Shown: positions 1-8,463 of the stretch, in pieces
How the letters are laid out: each line of letters starts with the position of its first letter
Position numbering within the stretch: the first letter of the stretch is position 1
Assembly (NCBI GenBank): GCA_002348045.1
Contig: DDYO01000108.1
Coordinates: forward strand, 1-8,463
Source of the DNA: Anaerolineales bacterium UBA2232
GTDB taxonomy: Bacteria; Chloroflexota; Anaerolineae; UBA2200
Reading direction: 5' to 3'
DNA length: 8,463 nucleotides
Translations under genes and position numbers: made by a program
The notes under the pieces: model-generated
What the model was told of the DNA's origin: nothing
The model's input: only the letters and a program-made list of their open reading frames with translations
The model's database searches: none

Positions 1-187
1 GGCCGTAGTATCGCCGCGCTTCGGCCAGGAGAAAGTCCATGCCTTGCGAGCCATACATAGCCAGGGTGACGTTGGTCGCCGTGATCCCGCCGGCCAGGAT
101 GTCGCGAAACGCAAAGCCGTAGCCGCCCAGGGCGTCGATGACGATGGCCTCCTGCTGCAACTGCTGGGACGCGCCGGTGAGCTCCAT
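1..187 (-). CDS. Possible M19-like (membrane dipeptidase family) protein, N-terminal 62 residues only
   Basis: This is the 5' end of a gene that runs off the left edge. The ATG at 187 is preceded by a near-perfect ribosome binding site (AAGGAGGG, 4 nt before the ATG), which fixes the start. The 62 visible residues have no signal peptide. They contain the segment IVIDALGG followed by a Gly-Gly-Ile-Thr-Ala-Thr-Asn-Val-Thr stretch. From memory, this resembles the opening of degenerate M19 membrane-dipeptidase-like proteins, where a short beta strand (VIDG) is followed by an AGGVTA motif. The classical zinc-binding HxD of M19 enzymes, normally just after the first strand, is not visible: the sequence reads DALGGYG. 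An active enzyme of the classical type is therefore uncertain. The family call rests on a short stretch only. The gene diverges from the candidate selenoprotein gene at 449. Confidence 0.5.
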   Translation of the reverse strand, partial: MELTGASQQLQQEAIVIDALGGYGFAFRDILAGGITATNVTLAMYGSQGMDFLLAEARRYYG

Positions 188-224
188 AGTGCCCTCCTTT
201 TCAGCCACTCGACTCTCAACCAGG

Positions 225-252
225 ATTGTAGGCAACGTTGCCAAGCGAGCAA
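225..252 (-). promoter_or_regulatory. Candidate sigma-70 promoter of the leftward gene with a palindrome in its spacer
   Basis: On the minus strand, TTGCTC (247-252) is followed by a 16-bp spacer and TACAAT (225-230; 5 of 6 matches to TATAAT). It lies about 38 bp upstream of the ATG at 187. The spacer contains a perfect 12-bp palindrome, GGCAACGTTGCC (231-242), directly abutting the -10 box. That is a classical place for a repressor to bind. No regulator is identified. Confidence 0.45.
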
Positions 253-368
253 CTGCCTGACAATGCCATATCCGTACTATACTACAAGCGGCAGGGCCTA
301 TGTCAGCCTTTATACCTGGATGTCTCGGAAGCGCTCGAGTCGCCTCACGGAACAGGCGCGGGGGGCGC

Positions 369-396
369 TGGACTTTTCCTGCCGACGAACTATACT
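369..396 (+). promoter_or_regulatory. Candidate promoter of the lipoprotein/selenoprotein gene
   Basis: TATACT (391-396; 5 of 6 matches to the -10 consensus) is preceded, with a 16-bp spacer, by TGGACT (369-374; a weak -35 box). Transcription would start near 403 and leave a leader of about 46 nt before the ATG at 449. The rest of 188-448 shows no convincing gene. The open frame that extends upstream of 449 there reads through the leader and has no family features. Confidence 0.3.
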
Positions 397-448
397 TGGC
401 TTCGTTGAGGCAGACGGCAGAACAACGGTGGGAGCGCTGATTCAAGGC

Positions 449-1459
449 ATGGAACGAACTCCAAGGCTCCTCGTGGCACCAAAGGGCTTGGGCCTGCTTG
501 GGGGCGTGCTGACCCTTGTTCTGGCAGCTTGCGCCACAGCGACTGTTGCACCGCTGGTCCCCTCACCGATTCCCCCCGTCACGCCTACCTCTGAGCCTAC
601 TTCCCTGGCCACACTTGAGCCTCAAGTGTTTGACCTCGTCGTGATGCACACCAATGACGTACTGGGCTACACCGAGCCATGTGGCTGACGGCCGCCCAGC
701 GGGGGAGTGGCTCGGAGAGCCACCTTGGTACAGGCGGTCCGGTCTCGCAACGACCGTACCCTGCTGCTGGACGCCGGGAACGCCTTGTGGAGTCAGCAAC
801 CCCTTGCCCTGCAGACCCAAAGCCGAATTGTCATAGAAGCCATGAACCTGCTGGGCTACAGCGCCATGGCCATCGGCGACCTCGACCTGGCGCTGGGCGT
901 GGACATTCTGCGCCACCGCATGGCTGATGCCGACTTTCCGGTACTCTCCGCCAACGTCCAGCTCAGTGCTACCGGAGAGTTGCTGGCCCGGCCCTATGCG
1001 CTGGTTGATGTCGCAGGAAAGGCGGTTGGCCTCATTGGTCTGACTGGGAGGCCGGCGCAGGACAGGGCTAACGCCAAATCTGGCATCGACTTTGCGCTCC
1101 TTCCAGCCGATGATGTGCTGCCAGCCTGTATCGCCGAGTTGCGCGCGAGCACAAGCATCATCATCGTCCTATCCACTCTGGGTCTTGAGGAGGATCAGCG
1201 CCTTTCTCAGATGCCAGGGATTACCATGATCCTAGGGGGCAGCACGCGCAGCCCAATGCCCCGCTCATGGGCGAACACCACCACCGGAACCCTGGTTGTA
1301 CAAGCCGGCTCACAGGGCGAGTGGATTGGAGTCCGGCGGCTGTTCTTTGACCAGGAACACCGGCTCACGAAACACGCCGACGACCTGGTCTACTTGACCG
1401 ATGACTATCCTGATGACCCGCAGATGCGGGCATTCCTGGACACCTATTCTGCCGACTGA
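449..1459 (+). CDS. Candidate selenoprotein: metallophosphatase-like lipoprotein with in-frame UGA (Sec) at codon 80
   Basis: Read from ATG 449 to TGA 1457-1459 with UGA 686-688 as selenocysteine, this is a 336-residue exported lipoprotein. It has a signal peptide with lipobox LAAC (Cys28), a Pro/Thr-rich linker (about 35-60), then a 5'-nucleotidase/metallophosphatase-like domain. It opens with HTND (67-70) and EPCG-Sec (76-80), and continues with GGVARRATL (from 85), LLLDAGN (to 111), FPVLSANV (to about 170), LIGLTG (195-200) and ILGG (to 264). Related proteins, as I recall them, carry EPCGC here, so the UGA falls on a cysteine. The frame is the same before and after the UGA, and no shift is needed. 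Catalytic positions are degenerate: GNHE reads GDLD, the HLG histidine is Thr243, and GGHxH reads GGSTR. A redox or ligand-binding role is inferred, not shown. Alternatives are a fresh nonsense mutation or a base-call error. GTG 428 is an alternative start. The only Shine-Dalgarno-like element (GGGAG, about 430) is rather distant from 449. Confidence 0.72.
611..629. repeat. Perfect inverted repeat inside the lipoprotein gene
   Basis: ACACTTGAG (611-619) and CTCAAGTGT (621-629) are exact reverse complements around one central base. The mRNA could fold a 7-bp stem with a 5-nt loop. It lies in the linker/first-strand coding region (residues 55-61), 56 nt before the UGA. No function is established. 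Confidence 0.5.
686..739 (+). promoter_or_regulatory. Candidate bacterial SECIS element directly after the in-frame UGA
   Basis: The UGA is 686-688. A perfect 6-bp hairpin follows: GTGGCT (707-712), loop CGGAG (713-717), AGCCAC (718-723). The loop begins 24 nt after the UGA, and its second base is G. That agrees with the known bacterial SECIS pattern of an apical loop roughly 16-37 nt downstream with a G in its first two bases. A second stem encloses it: GGCCGCC (690-696) can pair with GGCGGTC (733-739), with one G-U pair. The whole structure therefore starts one nucleotide after the UGA and spans about 50 nt, like the fdhF element. High GC makes chance hairpins common, so this is supportive rather than conclusive. 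Confidence 0.55.
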
Positions 1460-1472
1460 TTCTTGCACCGCA

Positions 1473-1496
1473 GGCGGCGACTTTGGCTGGGCCGCC
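1473..1496. repeat. GC-rich inverted repeat between convergent genes
   Basis: GGCGGC (1473-1478) and GCCGCC (1491-1496) enclose a 12-nt loop in the 98-bp gap between the lipoprotein gene and the converging PHP gene. There is no T-run on either side, so it does not qualify as an intrinsic terminator. It could still form a 3'-end hairpin for either transcript. Nothing else is recognisable in this gap. Confidence 0.3.
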
Positions 1497-1557
1497 AGGG
1501 TGTGCAGCCCGCCATTCCCTCGTTCAGCCGAGCAGCTGATGACCACCCCGACCCTCT

Positions 1558-2610
1558 TCATTTCCCCGTCAGATAGACAGGATTGGCAAAGATCCAGCCG
1601 CGCCATTGTCCCCAGACCCGCCGATAGGCCTCCGCGCGGTACACTCCGGCCTGGCTCACCACTTGGCCCAATTCCCGCCCATAGGCTTCGGCTACTGCTC
1701 GTCCGTTGCACAGCAGACGGATGCGGGCTGGTTGCGGCGTGGCCACCGACAGAGCCGCTCGGGACTGGACCTGCAGCTCCTGCCCTGAGTGGACAAGACA
1801 GCCTCCGCTTTCAGCGGTGAATCGAAAGCCCCGAGTGTCGCCTATTCCATCATATCCCACCCAGCCATGCCCTTCACGAAGGGCAGTGTAGACCAGGGAT
1901 GAATCCCGCTCGACAGACCCGCCGAAAGGCTCGTGGGTGAGGATATGCATGTTCAGCGCCCGGAAAAGATGGTCGTAGGGAAGGACGACCCGGCGAAGAG
2001 GACCCAGGTGATACGTGGTTCCGTGGGCGTCCGAGGCGCAAATCGCAGGGGTTTTGTGCCGGAGCAGCAGCTCGTCCCACTTTTGCAGCGTCTCCTCAAA
2101 TGGACCGCGAATCACCGTGCGCGGAAAGTATGCGGCCCACAGTCCTGAGGAGGCGCTGTGCACGTGGCTCTTGAACTCGGACATATAGTTCCACAGGCTG
2201 ATGCCCGTGAAGCCAGCTACCTGCCAATCGACCCAATTGATGTCTGGCTCCCGCGCAAAGGCGGAGCTGCGTTCAAAAGGGTGCGCGATAAAACTCAGTC
2301 CGCCCCGCTCCCTCACGGCATCAATCAGCGCTTGCGGTGCCCCGGCCTGCGCTGCCATGCTCTCTCCGACGCCATAGACCAGCAAGTGGTTCACCTCTGG
2401 TCTCCGGTGCACATCATGTACTTCTTCCCCTACCAGCAAGAGGGTACGGCCAAACCAGCCGTCGAGCCCGGGGACGTAGACGTTGTGGTCCGTAGGCATG
2501 ACAAAATCCAGGTCTGCGGCGGCTGCCATCTGCACGATCTGCGCGTGGGTGGCATGCCCATCGGACAAAACCGTGTGCAAGTGCAGATTTCCGCGGTATT
2601 CGTACGGCAT
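1558..2610 (-). CDS. PHP-domain metal-dependent phosphoesterase
   Basis: This is a 350-residue cytoplasmic protein of the PHP (polymerase and histidinol phosphatase) family, whose members are metal-dependent phosphoesterases. The metal-site motifs are all visible: NLHLHT (His10, His12), SDG (Asp17), TDHN (Asp41, His42), GEEV (Glu63), IAHPF (His110) and CASDAHG (Asp194, His196). A C-terminal stretch (about 265-350), rich in beta strands and ending WIFANPVYL, looks like the small beta-sandwich that caps many stand-alone PHP proteins. The substrate cannot be told from sequence. Start at 2610: GGAG lies 7 nt before this ATG, and the PHP fold begins right after it. In-frame ATGs at 2649 and 2646 overlap the stop of the upstream DUF1848 gene (ATGATG). 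They would add 12-13 residues and suggest translational coupling, but their Shine-Dalgarno match is poor. The gene is in an operon with DUF1848. Confidence 0.88.
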   Translation of the reverse strand: MPYEYRGNLHLHTVLSDGHATHAQIVQMAAAADLDFVMPTDHNVYVPGLDGWFGRTLLLVGEEVHDVHRRPEVNHLLVYGVGESMAAQAGAPQALIDAVRERGGLSFIAHPFERSSAFAREPDINWVDWQVAGFTGISLWNYMSEFKSHVHSASSGLWAAYFPRTVIRGPFEETLQKWDELLLRHKTPAICASDAHGTTYHLGPLRRVVLPYDHLFRALNMHILTHEPFGGSVERDSSLVYTALREGHGWVGYDGIGDTRGFRFTAESGGCLVHSGQELQVQSRAALSVATPQPARIRLLCNGRAVAEAYGRELGQVVSQAGVYRAEAYRRVWGQWRGWIFANPVYLTGK

Positions 2611-2645
2611 CTCTTCGCTCCAAGTCACTGGTATCTGTCTGCCCA

Positions 2646-3488
2646 TCATCTCGGTAGCCTGGGATTGGCATAGCAGTACGCACAGCCATTCGGGCAGCTC
2701 ATGGCATATGACCCGATGTCCACACTGGGCGTACAGCCACACTCGGGGCGCTGGCCAGGGTCCTTGCATGTTGGCAAAGGAATGCGCTGGGGGTGCAGTG
2801 CCGAGAGGAGCTCGCCGTCAATGCAACGCGACGGCATTGCTCCCGCCAAGGCCAGATCCCTCTGACTGCAGGAGCGCAAGGTGATCCCCAGAGGTTGGGC
2901 CACATTAGCCAGCTGAACGATGATCTCGAGGCGGCGCTCCGGAGTGGGGTCGTGCCACTGCCAGCCCTTTCGCCGTAGAACCTTGCCATACAGCGTAGCA
3001 AACGAGACTACTACCGTAGCTACTCCTGCTTTGCTCGCTGCCGACAGCACTTCCTGAGCCAACGACAAGTTGCTCTTGATCTGGCCGTTCTCGTGCCAGT
3101 GGACAATGGGATCAAAGCGCAGCGAAAGGCGGCGCGGGTCTTGCAGCACCGCTAGAAGATCAGGCACTTGATTCATTACCTGGTGCCAGGGTGGGATGCG
3201 AGGCTCCAGACGCGTAGAGCCCAACCCGGTGATTGTCAAATGGCAGAACAACTGATCGTAGCGGCCCAAGGCGGTTCGCAGTCCATCGCAATCGTGCAGC
3301 AAAGGGGCGAAATCCTTCGACCACAAGACCATGGTATGCACGTCCTTGGGTAACAGGGAGACGCGCCGAGTTCCACGGCCGTACGGGAGCAGCACGTCCG
3401 CATAGCCCAGGCGCACCGACTGCGCCAGCCACGAGCCGAAATGCATGACCATGTCGGTGCGCCTGGAGGCGGAAATGACCTGGGGCAT
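2646..3488 (-). CDS. DUF1848 family protein with C-terminal radical-SAM-like cysteine cluster
   Basis: This is a 280-residue protein starting PQVISASRRTDMV after the initiator Met, the usual opening of DUF1848 (ISASRRTDIP in relatives). Other family features are the SLLPKDVHTMVLWSKD segment and a cysteine-rich tail. In the last 40 residues there is an ECGC pair (Cys250, Cys252), SVDIGSY, then CPNGCAYCYAN with Cys265, Cys269 and Cys272. The spacing CX3CX2C equals that of the radical SAM [4Fe-4S] site, although here it lies at the C-terminus. The biochemical function of the family is unknown to me. An Fe-S cluster is likely. Two ATGs lie two codons apart (3494 and 3488). The second is chosen because GAAGGG sits 6 nt before it. 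The gene is followed closely by the PHP gene, suggesting a shared transcript. It diverges from the NUDIX gene. Confidence 0.85.
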   Translation of the reverse strand: MPQVISASRRTDMVMHFGSWLAQSVRLGYADVLLPYGRGTRRVSLLPKDVHTMVLWSKDFAPLLHDCDGLRTALGRYDQLFCHLTITGLGSTRLEPRIPPWHQVMNQVPDLLAVLQDPRRLSLRFDPIVHWHENGQIKSNLSLAQEVLSAASKAGVATVVVSFATLYGKVLRRKGWQWHDPTPERRLEIIVQLANVAQPLGITLRSCSQRDLALAGAMPSRCIDGELLSALHPQRIPLPTCKDPGQRPECGCTPSVDIGSYAMSCPNGCAYCYANPRLPR

Positions 3489-3505
3489 GACCATCCCTTC
3501 AAGCT

Positions 3506-3540
3506 AACGTGCTCCAACGTGCAACGAACGGGAGTATAAT
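3506..3540. promoter_or_regulatory. Divergent promoter region for DUF1848 and NUDIX genes with AACGTGC direct repeats
   Basis: A perfect TATAAT occurs on the plus strand (3535-3540), about 55 bp before the NUDIX start. On the minus strand the overlapping bases give TATACT (3533-3538), about 45 bp before the DUF1848 start. Neither has a good -35 box. Upstream of the plus-strand -10, the heptamer AACGTGC occurs twice (3506-3512 and 3516-3522), 10 bp apart. That is one helical turn, where a -35-substituting activator or a repressor could bind. Confidence 0.4.
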
Positions 3541-3594
3541 AGCAGCCAGGGCAGGGCGGCGCAAACGATAGGCCGTTCGCCGGGAGGTGCGCAG

Positions 3595-4068
3595 GTGCCC
3601 CGTGAATACCCTTCGGCTCCAACGGTGGGCGTGGGAGCGGTGGTGATAAGGGATAACCGCATCCTCCTGATCCGGCGGGGAACAGAACCCAACCGTGGTC
3701 TCTGGAGCATTCCCGGAGGTGTTGTGGAGCTGGGAGAAAGCCTGGCATTGGCTGCTGAACGGGAAGTACGCGAAGAGTGCCAGGTACAGATCAGGGCTGC
3801 AAGCATCCTGTCTACTGGCGAGCTCATCGACCGGGACGAGCAAGGCCGAGTCAGGTACCACTATATCCTGATTGACATGCTGGCGCACTGGATCAGTGGT
3901 AACGCGGTGGCAAGCAGCGACGCGATGGACGTTCTCTGGGCAAATGCCGTTGACTTGGAGAGCATCCCAATCGTTCCGCGCGTCCTGATAATCGCACGCT
4001 CGGCACTGTGGGCAGCCTGTACCACTCCAGACGGAGTGGGGCTCTGCCAGGCCGACATGAAACAATAG
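3595..4068 (+). CDS. NUDIX hydrolase
   Basis: This is a 157-residue NUDIX protein, an Mg2+-dependent hydrolase of nucleoside diphosphates linked to another moiety. The Nudix box is at residues 42-64: Gly42, Glu48, then REVREE with Arg56, Glu57, Glu60 and Glu61. It follows LWSIPGG. The glycine near the end of the consensus box (EExGU) is Gln63 here, a modest deviation outside the metal ligands. The N-terminal strand TVGVGAVVIRDNRILLIRRG resembles the ADP-ribose pyrophosphatase/MutT-like group, but the substrate cannot be assigned. The start is GTG 3595, with GGGAGGT (3581-3587) 7 nt upstream. The next gene, ychF, starts 9 nt after the stop. Its AGGAGG overlaps or follows the stop codon, so the two are almost certainly cotranscribed. 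Confidence 0.9.
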   Translation: MPREYPSAPTVGVGAVVIRDNRILLIRRGTEPNRGLWSIPGGVVELGESLALAAEREVREECQVQIRAASILSTGELIDRDEQGRVRYHYILIDMLAHWISGNAVASSDAMDVLWANAVDLESIPIVPRVLIIARSALWAACTTPDGVGLCQADMKQ

Positions 4069-4077
4069 GAGGGCAAA

Positions 4078-5175
4078 ATGGCGGTAGAGCTTGGAATCGT
4101 TGGACTGCCAAACGTTGGCAAGTCAACCTTGTTCAATGCGCTCACCAAGGCCAATGCGCTGGTAGCCAGTTATCCCTTCACCACCATCGAGCCCAACGCT
4201 GGGATTGTTCCTGTACCTGACCACAGGTTGGACCAGATTGCCGCGCTTTTTGAACCCGACAAGGTGGTGCCCAGTACGCTGCGTGTGGTGGATATCGCCG
4301 GTCTGGTCAAGGGTGCGAGCAAAGGCGAGGGTCTCGGCAACCAGTTCCTTGGTCACATTCGGACAGTGGACGCCATTGCGATGGTTGTGCGGACGTTCTG
4401 CAACACCGACATTCCCCATGTAACTACCGAGCTCAACCCGCTGCAGGATGTGGAGACAGTGCGTCTCGAGCTGATCTTGGCCGACTTGGCCACGGTGGAA
4501 CGACGACAAGAAAAGACCCTGGCGGCTGCCAAGGCCAAACCGACGAGCGTCGAGGGTGAACTAGCCGCCCTGAATTCTTTGCGGGAGTGGCTCAATGATG
4601 GCGTGCCAGTACACTCGGCCGAGATGCAACCTGCTGCAAAGGCCCTGGCCGCAGAGATGGAGCTGCTAACCGCCAAACCGTGGCTGTATGTGGCCAATGT
4701 GGGCGAGGATCAGCTTCCGAACGGTGAAGGCGCCGTCGAATCCCTCCAGGAATTGGCGCGGAACGAAGGCACCGAGTTGATTGTAGTCTGTGCCCAGTGC
4801 GAGGCTGACCTTGCGCTGTGGCCACCGGCCGAAGCCCAGGGTTACCTTGCCGAACTGGGCGTCCAATCCTCCGGTCTAACCAAGTTCGTCCAGGCCGGCT
4901 ATCGCCTGCTCAACCTGATTACCTTCTTCACCACAACTGGCGGCAAGGAGATTCGTGCTTGGCCGATCCGTGCCGGAACGTCGGTGTGGGACGCTGCGGG
5001 CAAGATCCACACTGATATGCAACGCGGCTTCATCCGGGCGGAAGTCGTTCACCATCAGGACTTGGTAGCTGCCGGATCAATCGCCGCTGCTCGCGACCGC
5101 GGAGCGGTGCACCTGGAAGGCAAGGACTATGCTGTCCAAGATGGGGATGTGATCCACATCCGCTTCAGTACGTGA
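4078..5175 (+). CDS. ychF: YchF/Ola1-type ribosome-associated P-loop ATPase
   Basis: This is a 365-residue member of the universal YchF subfamily of Obg-like P-loop NTPases. They prefer ATP over GTP, associate with ribosomes and take part in translation and stress responses. The Walker A motif GLPNVGKS is at 9-16, the YPFTTI switch region at about 38, and the G3 motif DIAGL at 72-76. The glycine-rich GASKGEGLGNQFL follows. The G4 position reads NVGE (207-210) where GTPases have NKxD, which is the hallmark explaining the ATP preference of the family. A helical insertion (about 125-195) and a C-terminal TGS domain (about 280-365, with ITFFTTTGGKEIRAW) complete the usual architecture. The length is normal for the family. 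The start is ATG with AGGAGG upstream. Confidence 0.97.
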   Translation: MAVELGIVGLPNVGKSTLFNALTKANALVASYPFTTIEPNAGIVPVPDHRLDQIAALFEPDKVVPSTLRVVDIAGLVKGASKGEGLGNQFLGHIRTVDAIAMVVRTFCNTDIPHVTTELNPLQDVETVRLELILADLATVERRQEKTLAAAKAKPTSVEGELAALNSLREWLNDGVPVHSAEMQPAAKALAAEMELLTAKPWLYVANVGEDQLPNGEGAVESLQELARNEGTELIVVCAQCEADLALWPPAEAQGYLAELGVQSSGLTKFVQAGYRLLNLITFFTTTGGKEIRAWPIRAGTSVWDAAGKIHTDMQRGFIRAEVVHHQDLVAAGSIAAARDRGAVHLEGKDYAVQDGDVIHIRFST

Positions 5176-5194
5176 GACACCGCACACCGTCACC

Positions 5195-5223
5195 TTGCTT
5201 TTCGTGGCCGTTTGTGCTAGAAT
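5195..5223 (+). promoter_or_regulatory. Sigma-70 type promoter of the FmdB-family gene
   Basis: TTGCTT (5195-5200), a 17-bp spacer, and TAGAAT (5218-5223; 5 of 6) make the best consensus promoter in the window. It lies in the 84-bp gap after ychF. Transcription would begin near 5230, about 30 nt before the ATG at 5260, so the small zinc-ribbon gene can be transcribed independently of ychF. Confidence 0.6.
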
Positions 5224-5259
5224 ACCCGGTGCAACATCGTTCAGGAGGAAGCACAACCA

Positions 5260-5559
5260 ATGCCTACCTATGAGTACAAGTGCGAGACCTGTGGCATTCG
5301 GTTTGATCGAATACAGCATTTCGATGAGGCGCCGCTTAAGGAATGTCCCGAGTGTCACGGCGAGTGTCGCCGCGTCTTTTCACCGGTCGGCATCATCTTC
5401 AAGGGGTCTGGCTTCTACTCAACCGATCATCGCCAGCTTTCGTCGGGATCCACTGCCCCGCGCAAGGAGTTGGCCGCCCCCAAGGACGCAGAGAAGAAGG
5501 CCTTGCCATCAGGCGAGAGCGCTTCGCCGGCTGCCACCGAAAAGGCCAACAGCGAGTAA
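5260..5559 (+). CDS. FmdB-family zinc-ribbon regulatory-type protein
   Basis: This is a 99-residue protein starting MPTYEYKCETCG, the signature opening of the FmdB/CxxC_CxxC_SSSS zinc-ribbon family. Two CxxC knuckles (Cys8/Cys11 and Cys29/Cys32) would hold one zinc ion, and a further Cys36 is present. The conserved patch GIIFKGSGFYSTD (about 45-58) follows, as in relatives. Beyond residue 60 the protein is a low-complexity, charged, Ala/Ser/Lys-rich tail that is probably disordered. The family is named from a putative regulator of formamidase expression, but most members have no proven role, so no specific target is claimed. The start is ATG with AGGAGG (5243-5248) 11 nt upstream, driven by the promoter at 5195-5223. 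The gene converges with the small minus-strand gene 54 bp downstream. Confidence 0.9.
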   Translation: MPTYEYKCETCGIRFDRIQHFDEAPLKECPECHGECRRVFSPVGIIFKGSGFYSTDHRQLSSGSTAPRKELAAPKDAEKKALPSGESASPAATEKANSE

Positions 5560-5613
5560 GATAGCAGCCAGGTGGAGTGTGGGCGGCTCTGCCTCTGTCA
5601 AACGTGGGTGGAT

Positions 5614-5928
5614 CTAGAGCTGAAAGCCACCGCTGGCTTCCACAATCCTCCTGGAGTAGTTCTCGCCAAAGGTCGCCAATCTAGCCTCCAATTCTTGCCA
5701 CTCTTTGCTAGAGAGGACCTGGCGCATCTTTTGCAGGGTCTCGGTGACGCCTCCAGCTAGAACCTGAGGACCTGACCCATAAACGGTATACCAGGCATCG
5801 GTAGGTTGCAGGCCAGCATCCACCAGCGCCTGCGCAAACTCCCTCATCATGAACTCAACATACTCGGACTCATGACCAGTCTTGATGTCCCAGGTCATCA
5901 GCAGCTTGATCATTCCCCGCATCCCCAT
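5614..5928 (-). CDS. Small conserved protein, probable dimeric ferredoxin-like alpha/beta fold
   Basis: This is a 104-residue cytoplasmic protein with no signal peptide and no cysteines. The pattern is beta (IKLLMTWDIK), helix (SEYVEFMMREFAQAL), beta (AWYTVYG, then QVLAGGV), helix (ETLQKMRQVLSSKEWQEL) and a terminal helix. It matches the ferredoxin-like dimeric alpha/beta barrel seen in ABM/EthD/NIPSNAP-type proteins. I know of similar proteins in Chloroflexota but of no assigned function, and no catalytic residues can be pointed to. The start is uncertain. ATG 5928 has AAAGGA about 10 nt upstream. ATG 5913 gives the more typical N-terminus MIKLLMTWDIK and has GGGGA just before it. If the promoter at 5947-5975 is real, its start point favours 5913. 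Confidence 0.75.
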   Translation of the reverse strand: MGMRGMIKLLMTWDIKTGHESEYVEFMMREFAQALVDAGLQPTDAWYTVYGSGPQVLAGGVTETLQKMRQVLSSKEWQELEARLATFGENYSRRIVEASGGFQL

Positions 5929-5946
5929 GCAGTCTATGTCCTTTCC

Positions 5947-5975
5947 ATCTTACTAGACGGTGCGAGGAATGACAA
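5947..5975 (-). promoter_or_regulatory. Candidate promoter of the small alpha/beta protein gene
   Basis: On the minus strand, TTGTCA (5970-5975; 5 of 6 to TTGACA), a 17-bp spacer and TAAGAT (5947-5952; 4 of 6) form a plausible promoter. Transcription would start near 5940, leaving a very short leader to ATG 5928 and about 27 nt to ATG 5913. Confidence 0.4.
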
Positions 5976-6037
5976 GTGGAGCATGTCCGCGGGGTGGCCA
6001 TACAGGTGAGCCACGTTCGGTAACTGGAGGCCTCAGA

Positions 6038-6502
6038 GTGAAAGCGGTGGTGCAGCGTGTGAGCCAAGCCACGGTCTCCGTTGGCGGTAGAGCAGTGGGG
6101 GCCATTGACCATGGGCTCGTGGTGCTATTGGGCATCGGGCATGGGGATGGCGAGGCCGAAGCGCAATGGATGGCAAACAAAATCACCCACTTGCGTATCT
6201 TTGAGGACGACCAGGGCAAGTTCAACCGCTCCTTGCTGGACGTCGGAGGCCACGTGCTGCTCATCTCCCAGTTCACTCTCTACGGTGATGCCCACAAAGG
6301 CCGGCGCCCCAGTTTCACCGGAGCTGCCCTTCCGCATGTGGCCGAACCTCTTGTAGCGAGGGTCTCGGAACTGCTTATTCAGGGCGGCGTACCGGTAGCC
6401 TGCGGTGAATTCCAGGCGCACATGCTGGTAGAGATCCACAATGACGGGCCCGTTACTATCATCCTCGAGCGCGAATCCGTACGCCCGGCACTAGAGCTGT
6501 GA
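6038..6502 (+). CDS. dtd: D-aminoacyl-tRNA deacylase
   Basis: This is a 154-residue Dtd that hydrolyses the ester bond of D-amino acids (and glycine) mischarged on tRNA, protecting translation. The first residues MKAVVQRVSQATV match the family N-terminus. The two active-site signatures are present: SQFTLYGD (77-84, with Thr80 in the pocket) and NDGPVT (135-140, whose Gly137-Pro138 forms the cross-subunit chirality-selecting motif). The FNRSLLDVGG segment is also typical. The length is normal and the protein is expected to be a homodimer. The start is GTG 6038 with GGAGG (6026-6030) 7 nt upstream. An in-frame extension further upstream has no family match. The PA14 lipoprotein gene begins 96 bp downstream on the same strand with its own ribosome binding site. 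Confidence 0.95.
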   Translation: MKAVVQRVSQATVSVGGRAVGAIDHGLVVLLGIGHGDGEAEAQWMANKITHLRIFEDDQGKFNRSLLDVGGHVLLISQFTLYGDAHKGRRPSFTGAALPHVAEPLVARVSELLIQGGVPVACGEFQAHMLVEIHNDGPVTIILERESVRPALEL

Positions 6503-6535
6503 CCAGTTTCAGGCCAGCGCAGGGAACTTGCGGCA

Positions 6536-6561
6536 GGTCTCAGCGTCTACGAGGAGAGACC
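6536..6561 (+). repeat. Inverted repeat between dtd and the PA14 lipoprotein gene
   Basis: GGTCTC (6536-6541) and GAGACC (6556-6561) can form a 6-bp stem with a 14-nt loop. No T-run follows, so it is not an intrinsic terminator by sequence. It may be an mRNA hairpin ahead of the next gene or chance. No clear promoter was found in the 96-bp gap. Confidence 0.25.
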
Positions 6562-6598
6562 GTATTCAACTCTCGCCATTCCTTGAGGTATCTAAAAC

Positions 6599-8407
6599 AT
6601 GCTCAATAGACTGAGCCGGCCTACGGCCATTTTACTATTGTCTTTGTTCGCATACGCCTGCGTTCCGCAGCTGGGAAAGACCCCAACAATACTGGCCAGC
6701 CCCGCGGATTTGGTTGCGGGCACCATCGTGCGTGTCACTGGTACTGATTGGAAAGCCGGTGAGCGTGTCGAGATCGGACTGAAGACGCCACAGCAATCGC
6801 CCCGGGAGTCGCAGACCGTGGCCAATGTTCTCACCGATGCTTCCGGCAGGTTCGTAGCGGTCTTCTCTTTCCCCGGCGACGTCACGTGGCCGGAAGACCA
6901 CATCCTTACCATCGTCGCCCACAACAGCGACTGGACCCGGACCGGGCAGACAACGGTCCGGCATGCCGTCGCCGCGACCAGCGTGCCGGTGCCCACGCCG
7001 ACGAGTTCATCGGCATCAACGGCTCTCTTGCAGGCTCGGGTCCTGGGCTATGTAGAGAACCTCGCGGACGGTTCGGGGATCATCAAGCTGCGCGCCGTCG
7101 AAGGCCCAACCGATGTACTGGTCATCGGCCAGCAGACTCAAGTGACGACTGGCGGCCAACCCTCGCAGCTATCGGACATCCGAATCGGCGACCTCATAGA
7201 AGCGGCCGGACAGATGGGCACGAACAACCGCCTGGTCGTGACTCACATCCGGATTATTGTGCAGAACACGGTCCTCCCGCCACCTACCGCAACGCTGGTA
7301 CCTGCGGGCCCCTCTTGGCGAGGCGAGTACTACTCTAACACGACTTTTAGCGGGCGCCCCGTCCTCGTGAGGGAAGATCCGGTGATAGACTTTCAGTGGC
7401 GGGACGGAGCGCCTGCGCCGGCATTGCCATCAGATGGCTTCACCGTTCGCTGGACCGGCACGTGGCCCCTCGAAACGGGCGTCTACCGTTTCTTTGCCCA
7501 AGTGGATGATGGTGTCAGACTATGGATCGGCCAGCAATTGGTTATCGATCAATGGCACGAGAGCAGCGGTGCATTGTACAGCACGGATGCATACGTCAGC
7601 GCTGGTCCACAGATGGTAAAAGTGGAGTACCTGGAGTCACAAGCCAATGCTTTGGCCCGGGTGTGGTGGGAATTCCTCGGTCAAGACGCTACACCCATTA
7701 CCCCTGAGTGGAAGGGCAGCTACTTTGCAGGCATGAGCCTGAGCGGACAGCCACTGTTCGTGCTTAACGAGCGTTTGGTCGACTTTGACTGGGGTGCAGG
7801 TTCGCCATTCAACGGCTTCCCGGCCGATCAGTTCTCAGTCCGCTGGACGCGTTCCCTATATCTAGACGGCGGAGTCTATCGCTTTTACGCCAGTGCCGAC
7901 GACGGAGTGCGGGTCATCGTGAACGGCACTACCATCATCGATCGCTGGCGTGACGGCGGTGTGGAGGCCTTTGCCGGGGACCTGGTCGTCGAAAGCGACA
8001 TTCACATGGTAACCGTTGAGTACTATGAGAACGGTGGACAGGCAGTGATGCGGCTGTGGTGGGAGCTCGTGCCGAGTACCGCGACACCTACACCTACCTC
8101 TAGCCCTTCAGCCACACCGGTTCTCACTCCCACTCCAGAGCCAACCGGGTCAGCCACACCAGGGCCAGCTATCCCCACGCCCTCGCCAACGGATATCTTC
8201 GGGTCCACAACTCCGACTGCTCAGCCTCAAGCGACGGAAACCCTGGTATCGCGGCCTGCCTCCAGCGCCCTTCTAGAAGCGTTTGTCCCCCAGGTCAGCA
8301 AGGGCCACAGTGAGGCTGTTGACCGCTCGTTGGTTGTGCGCCGTGTGGGTATCGTCTTCAGGCCATCAGCGGGACAAAAACACCTGGGCGGTTTCTACAA
8401 GCATTAG
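6599..8407 (+). CDS. Multidomain secreted lipoprotein with DUF5666-like domain and two PA14 domains
   Basis: This is a 602-residue exported protein. The N-terminal hydrophobic segment ends in AYAC (Cys21), a slightly weak lipobox, so it is probably a membrane-anchored lipoprotein. Residues about 30-105 resemble an Ig/IPT-like beta domain (VAGTIVRVTGTDWKAGE, then a DASGRF segment). After a short Pro/Thr linker, about 140-225 looks like a DUF5666/OB-type beta barrel (RVLGYVENLADGSGIIKL, then a GDLIEAAGQ segment). Two PA14 domains follow, about 240-360 (from WRGEYYSN) and about 371-490 (from WKGSYFAG). Each has FTVRW or FSVRW, GVYRF, DDGVR and a terminal RVWWE or RLWWE. PA14 domains usually bind glycans or sit in surface proteins. 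A Thr/Pro-rich linker (about 490-550) leads to an unrecognised tail of about 50 residues. ATG 6599 is preceded by GAGGT. Ligand and partners are unknown. Confidence 0.88.
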   Translation: MLNRLSRPTAILLLSLFAYACVPQLGKTPTILASPADLVAGTIVRVTGTDWKAGERVEIGLKTPQQSPRESQTVANVLTDASGRFVAVFSFPGDVTWPEDHILTIVAHNSDWTRTGQTTVRHAVAATSVPVPTPTSSSASTALLQARVLGYVENLADGSGIIKLRAVEGPTDVLVIGQQTQVTTGGQPSQLSDIRIGDLIEAAGQMGTNNRLVVTHIRIIVQNTVLPPPTATLVPAGPSWRGEYYSNTTFSGRPVLVREDPVIDFQWRDGAPAPALPSDGFTVRWTGTWPLETGVYRFFAQVDDGVRLWIGQQLVIDQWHESSGALYSTDAYVSAGPQMVKVEYLESQANALARVWWEFLGQDATPITPEWKGSYFAGMSLSGQPLFVLNERLVDFDWGAGSPFNGFPADQFSVRWTRSLYLDGGVYRFYASADDGVRVIVNGTTIIDRWRDGGVEAFAGDLVVESDIHMVTVEYYENGGQAVMRLWWELVPSTATPTPTSSPSATPVLTPTPEPTGSATPGPAIPTPSPTDIFGSTTPTAQPQATETLVSRPASSALLEAFVPQVSKGHSEAVDRSLVVRRVGIVFRPSAGQKHLGGFYKH

Positions 8408-8463
8408 ATCGCGTCCGCCACTGCAATGGTCATCCTCGCCGAGAGTGTGGAATAAGCTCGGGG
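8408..8463. other. Right-edge intergenic sequence
   Basis: These 56 bases follow the stop of the PA14 lipoprotein gene. No terminator hairpin with a T-run, no ribosome binding site and no coding start that could be supported were seen before the window ends. Confidence 0.5.

Follow-up and report, generated by a model that had tools for sequence, protein, structure and literature searches.

We analysed an 8,463-nucleotide stretch of DNA (hereafter the window), positions 1 to 8,463 of the forward strand of contig DDYO01000108.1 from Anaerolineales bacterium UBA2232 (GCA_002348045.1), and conclude that the gene at 449-1459 is in all likelihood a real selenoprotein gene, with TGA 686-688 as its selenocysteine (Sec) codon. 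In the explanation that we favour, to which as a whole we assign a probability of about 0.7, the product would be a lipoprotein that has the UshA/CD73 metallophosphatase fold and lies outside the cytoplasm, anchored in the membrane, and UGA 686-688 would be read as Sec with the aid of a hairpin at 707-723. Cys78 and Sec80, in the loop that follows the first core strand, would then make up a thiol/selenol pair. With the metal site lost, the chemistry of the protein outside the membrane would most likely involve electrons or thiol-disulfide exchange (possibly sulfur or peroxide) rather than the hydrolysis of phosphate esters. Computation established the frame across the TGA, the TGA in distant relatives, the start points of close relatives, the covariation in the hairpin and the loss of metal ligands; Sec insertion in this host, export and redox activity are inferred.

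The reading frame and its internal TGA

Translation of 449-1456 with TGA as U yielded 336 residues, followed by a terminal stop (TGA 1457-1459). The sole internal stop in this frame was TGA 686-688, at residue 80, with 256 codons after it, as the first-pass annotation of the window had described. The features of the gene are as follows.

449-1459, plus strand: UshA-like Cys-Gly-Sec lipoprotein gene, 336 residues with Sec80; one internal TGA; 174.9 bits to NF041198
449-532, plus strand: signal peptide with lipobox LAAC (Cys28, 530-532), by eye
680-688, plus strand: C-G-U motif TGT GGC TGA, residues 78-80; TGA is the proposed Sec codon
707-723, plus strand: hairpin resembling a selenocysteine insertion sequence (SECIS), 7-bp stem 707-713/717-723 and GGA loop 714-716; 25 nt after the TGA, -10.1 kcal/mol
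770-781, plus strand: DAGN, aligned with metal-site stretch DAGD; last Asp replaced by Asn
875-889, plus strand: GDLDL, aligned with metal-site stretch GNHEF; Asn-His replaced by Asp-Leu
1175-1177, plus strand: Thr243, aligned with the metal-site His of SHLG
1235-1249, plus strand: GGSTR, aligned with metal-site stretch GGHSH; His replaced by Ser

The protein begins like a bacterial lipoprotein, with a signal peptide and the lipobox LAAC (both judged by eye), then runs through a Pro/Thr-rich linker and the strand DLVVMHTND into EPCGU (residues 76-80). VAGC and FSGC stand near the lipobox position in the other two full-length relatives, P0015 and P0058. Downstream, GGVARRAT, LLLDAGN, SANV and GLTG are present in the same frame, so that all the elements named in the first-pass annotation on either side of the TGA, including the C-G-U motif itself, were found.

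A Pfam scan of the protein gave no family. The match of the joined protein to the NCBIfam model NF041198 spans the TGA (residues 57-309, 174.9 bits, E 2.4e-51), and because both sides of the TGA match the same model, the frame across it is more than chance. TGA was also the terminal codon in five of the nine window genes checked (the 449-1459 gene, ychF, dtd and two more), and therefore works as a stop in the source organism.

The probable Sec codon in relatives, its hairpin and the selenium machinery

A protein search listed the best 120 of 472 relatives, one of which is the window's own downstream piece, leaving 119. Only two of these start at residue 1; the other 117 begin with Met, Val or Leu at residue 82 or beyond, 12 of them at residue 113 or later. 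These headless database entries carry, where named, 5'-nucleotidase-type or SoxB names. At the other end all 119 reach residue 333-336, and 16 continue beyond 336, by 1-2 residues in fifteen and by 16 in P0058. As far as could be seen, the downstream frame is intact in the listed relatives, with no sign of the further disabling damage that might have marked a decayed gene. The simplest reading of the start points is that the reading frame in most of the close group meets a stop at the site or close to it, and this stop would presumably be TGA. The two full-length relatives have Cys (P0058, ACGC) and Asp (P0015, PCGD) in the residue-80 slot; the Asp of P0015 illustrates that the slot can be lost.

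Other routes to close copies gave little. Ranking 386 genomes by the window YchF, comparing YchF regions and drawing trees led to no close copy, and none was found in the phyla of genomes G164, G108, G349, G064 and G353. A search of genome contigs for relatives of the gene returned three distant loci, a search of viral contigs none, and a plasmid search only relatives below 60% identity.

In distant loci the TGA was seen directly, within PCGU, ECGU, PSGU or PCPTU at the matching place, and CGU was found at all 22 further TGA places fetched (18 + 4) among the matches listed. Other copies have Cys forms (PCGC, GCGC, NCGC, PCDC and others), and the expectation that homologues would carry Cys at the site held true for PCGC and ACGC. 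The pattern typical of selenoprotein genes, an in-frame TGA common to relatives with Cys in others, is thus present in the distant copies and P0058 and, judged by start points, presumably in the close relatives. A set of 38 Sec genes was assembled from the window gene and 37 distant ones, with a search pattern that demanded Cys or Ser before Sec. Their motifs were CGU in 35, CPTU in one and SGU (PSGU) in two, the latter two with their Cys at position +2 or +3 relative to Sec; a Cys thus lies within three residues of Sec in all 38, partly by construction of the pattern. Six further loci with CGU or SGU (L005, L016, L182, L184, L185 and L186) were missed by the pattern and are outside the 38. 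The PSGU variants with Cys at +2 or +3 of Sec, together with a CPTU variant (L006, L016, L018 and L004), come from genomes of one phylum. Two or three UshA-like Sec genes are neighbours on a single contig at L215, on contig C103 of genome G002, and at L148 and L149.

The hairpin at 707-723 conforms to the published rules for bacterial SECIS (bSECIS) elements: a loop of 3-9 nt with G in one of the first two places, a stem of 4-16 bp, a UGA-loop distance of 16-37 nt and a minimum free energy of -7.5 kcal/mol or lower, as given in the available text of PMC13188914. In the 38 Sec genes, the wobble base of the codon preceding Arg-Arg lies opposite that of the second Arg codon (a Lys codon in two genes); the combinations are C-G in 21, T-A in 6, C-A in 8 and C-C in 3. 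All six T face A at this main wobble pair (Fisher p 0.001), and the 27 pairs were reached in 2 of 2000 shuffles; the window hairpin has the T-A form. For a second wobble pair the count is 31 of 38, which 1 of 2000 shuffles attained. CGG is the first Arg codon in 27 of the 38 genes; among 516 Arg codons of these genes its share is 28%. Of the Sec genes, 27 of 38 form all five inner pairs; of 12 Cys genes (one row, L178 read at a second start, having been removed from 13), none does, a comparison confounded by the different peptide of the Cys genes.

The genomes with a TGA copy (n = 18) largely have the machinery to insert Sec: SelB scored over its cut-off in 17 (not in G002) and tRNA-Sec over its gathering score in 16 (not in G002 or G031), counted tRNA-Sec matches having at least 57.8 bits for a threshold of 47. 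Among 14 named control genomes, SelB was over cut-off in two and tRNA-Sec over gathering score in five. At one locus (L212), selA and selB directly follow a TGA-bearing copy of the SGU form, all on one strand; here (L212:3994-12631) genes for FlpD/Fer4 and CCG (heterodisulfide-reductase-like) proteins precede the TGA-bearing UshA-like gene. At another (L213:4325-12418), a Cys form overlaps the upstream AhpC/thioredoxin-like gene by four bases, and selB lies further down the contig, with a selA-like open reading frame (ORF) between the two, by eye.

Several observations weigh against reading the TGA as Sec. For the close, Anaerolineae-type relatives, the start points of database proteins are all that bears on the TGA, and the 12 of 117 that start late say little. 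The rules for the hairpin are also easily satisfied: 21 of the 245 TGA triplets in the window (both strands, TGA 686-688 counted) pass them, 12 with a stem of at least 7 bp, and the hairpin alone is therefore modest to weak evidence. No pairing occurs at the main wobble pair in 11 of the 38 Sec genes, and the covariation values overstate the case, the rows being related. Folding after the window TGA resembles that of codon shuffles (z -0.19) and over 22 genes is only slightly better than theirs (mean -1.04), and Rfam gave nothing at gathering score in the window, with matches around the TGA only at E 0.59 and worse. Since the stretch after the TGA has, taken as a whole, an unremarkable folding energy, the case for a SECIS rests on the local hairpin and its covariation. 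Finally, 18 comparison genomes, hand-picked among those in which the copy fetched had no TGA, contain SelB in 13 and tRNA-Sec in 13, although one of them (G185) carries a TGA copy elsewhere. The machinery thus agrees with Sec without discriminating, because the comparison genomes mostly have SelB and tRNA-Sec too. The assignment of the TGA to Sec, as proposed in the first-pass annotation, nevertheless draws together the start points of the relatives, the TGA in distant copies and the hairpin.

The lost metal site and the possible function

Enzymes of the UshA type bind their metals through the residues of DxH, GD, GNH, a single H and GHxH. The window protein matches the catalytic-domain fold of UshA-type metallophosphatases, and has DVL, AGN, GDL, Thr243 and GGSTR at these places, so that the first Asp alone is kept. 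The description "metallophosphatase-like" in the first-pass annotation is right for the fold, but of the metal site most ligands are gone. The Asn-His pair was absent from all 119 listed close relatives, as was a His at its second place.

The same loss follows the motif through the superfamily. In an alignment of 84 rows, nine of them unscored as the region was missing, the NH/HW pair occurred in 0 of 31 rows with a C-x-U/C or Sec motif versus 40 of 44 motif-less rows, the motif-less rows without it being P0015, L025, L032 and L167. On a midpoint-rooted tree of 82 rows built without the motif and GNHE columns, one change separates the motif group from the metal-pair group, and the window clade adjoins the metal enzymes; three headless relatives were assumed to bear the motif, rows scored "?" were left free and support values were not considered. 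L025 and L032, which have GVHDF instead of GNHDF and stand beside the metal-enzyme side of the tree, are possible intermediates in loss of the metal site.

On these results, the relatives appear to have traded the metal site of a phosphatase for a pair of sulfur and selenium. With the fold's metal site lost, redox-type chemistry is most likely and phosphate ester hydrolysis unlikely. The partner thiol shifts sides of Sec among copies (CGU, CPTU, SGUGC, SGURGC), as might be expected if a redox pair were under selection. Whether the C-x-U/C UshA-like proteins form one lineage that lost the site for two metals and turned into an oxidoreductase of the thiol/selenol type, extracytoplasmic and lacking a thioredoxin fold, is a wider proposal to which we give even odds; the Anaerolineae-type form in the window, beside the metal enzymes on the tree, would be its minimal single-domain version.

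Other findings tell against this functional proposal. The redox role would follow from the logic of the motif, and the model of the protein is of low confidence in the loop that carries the motif. The authors of the 2008 ocean-sampling selenoproteome set the UshA-like proteins apart from families with Cys-based redox motifs, according to the available text (PMC2398784). Ligand loss is also incomplete across the family: among the 119 close relatives Asp111 is kept in 26, His243 in 46 and His265 in 4, and the His two places after the first-site position is kept in 3 of the 31 motif rows (L033, L041 and one of L052).

With Sec inserted, the C-G-U pair might instead bind or transfer something, such as a soft metal or a selenium or sulfur species, rather than cycle between redox states. 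We consider this unlikely, as the slot can turn to Cys (P0058) or Asp (P0015) in close relatives and the neighbours of the window gene give no hint of such a role. These neighbours encode a CehA/McbA-type hydrolase, a DUF1848 protein, a Nudix protein, YchF, FmdB, DTD and a PA14 protein (Pfam, NCBIfam), and hold no hint to the function of the 449-1459 gene in general. The window YchF is 74% identical to P0124 and P0125, and the four listed YchF relatives bearing organism names are Anaerolineae, which makes this class the probable origin of the contig. A 104-aa ORF at 5614-5928 (minus strand) has no Pfam or NCBIfam match, and a 602-aa protein encoded at 6599-8407 has a hydrophobic start, two PA14 stretches (Pfam) and a Pro/Thr-rich stretch near its end.

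Retention of phosphatase activity, with Sec near the active site, is very improbable given that the Asn-His pair is missing from every close relative listed and every motif row, and that its second place never holds His in the former. With a sequence from a single contig, one might suspect an ordinary Cys gene that has suffered a nonsense mutation or been misread in sequencing; this has a very small chance of being correct, since 117 of the 119 listed relatives begin after the site, the remainder of the frame is intact and a fitting hairpin follows the TGA. A split into a lipopeptide of 79 residues and a second protein initiated at GTG 707 would fit the mostly downstream pieces in databases; this is scarcely credible, as the main part would be left without both the export signal and the first fold strand, and the Cys and Asp forms are single proteins.

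Relation to known UshA-like proteins

The gene had been put forward as a candidate new selenoprotein in a family where none was known to be described, a claim that does not survive the literature. COG0737 UshA-like proteins with a CxU motif were listed in 2008, with 76 selenoproteins and 92 Cys homologues (PMC2398784), and an UshA-like selenoprotein appears again in a 2022 table (PMC9312934) and in PMC7435645, while a 2026 review lists both NF041198 and NF049981 as UshA-like (PMC13188914). In the available text of two further papers, COG0737 (PMC1088965) and UshA (PMC12013277) are not mentioned. The window gene is thus not a new selenoprotein family; it is a short variant of the UshA-like CxU kind that falls below both curated cut-offs, as do ten relatives scanned (eight of them headless).

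The family has so far been listed, in the available text of these sources, as a predicted selenoprotein without function. The published listings of UshA-like selenoproteins contain, as far as their available text goes (the subscription literature being mostly outside this scope), no mention of a lost metal site or of an Anaerolineae form; the word "metal" is absent from that of PMC2398784, and "metallophosph" and "Anaerolin" from that of PMC13188914. What may be new is that the C-x-U/C motif does not occur together with the Asn-His pair of the metal site, which offers a testable idea: a hydrolase fold that has become a redox protein with a selenol.

Among known families, the window protein scores best with NF041198 (UshA_like_PCGU), whose PCGU motif it shares as EPCGU, at the same place as in other copies. 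Its 174.9 bits are below the curated cut-off of 275, and the match covers model positions 18-276 of 519, with nothing beyond. In being UshA-like and of single-domain length, it resembles NF049981 (UshA-like (seleno)protein family 2; model of 262 positions), but it reaches only 46.1 bits against a curated cut-off of 140, and the motif of that family is CxxU in the available text of PMC13188914, whereas that of the window protein is CxU. Compared with the 5'-nucleotidases UshA and CD73 and the thiosulfohydrolase SoxB, the window protein is without most of the metal ligands, ends after the first domain and has an added C-G-U.
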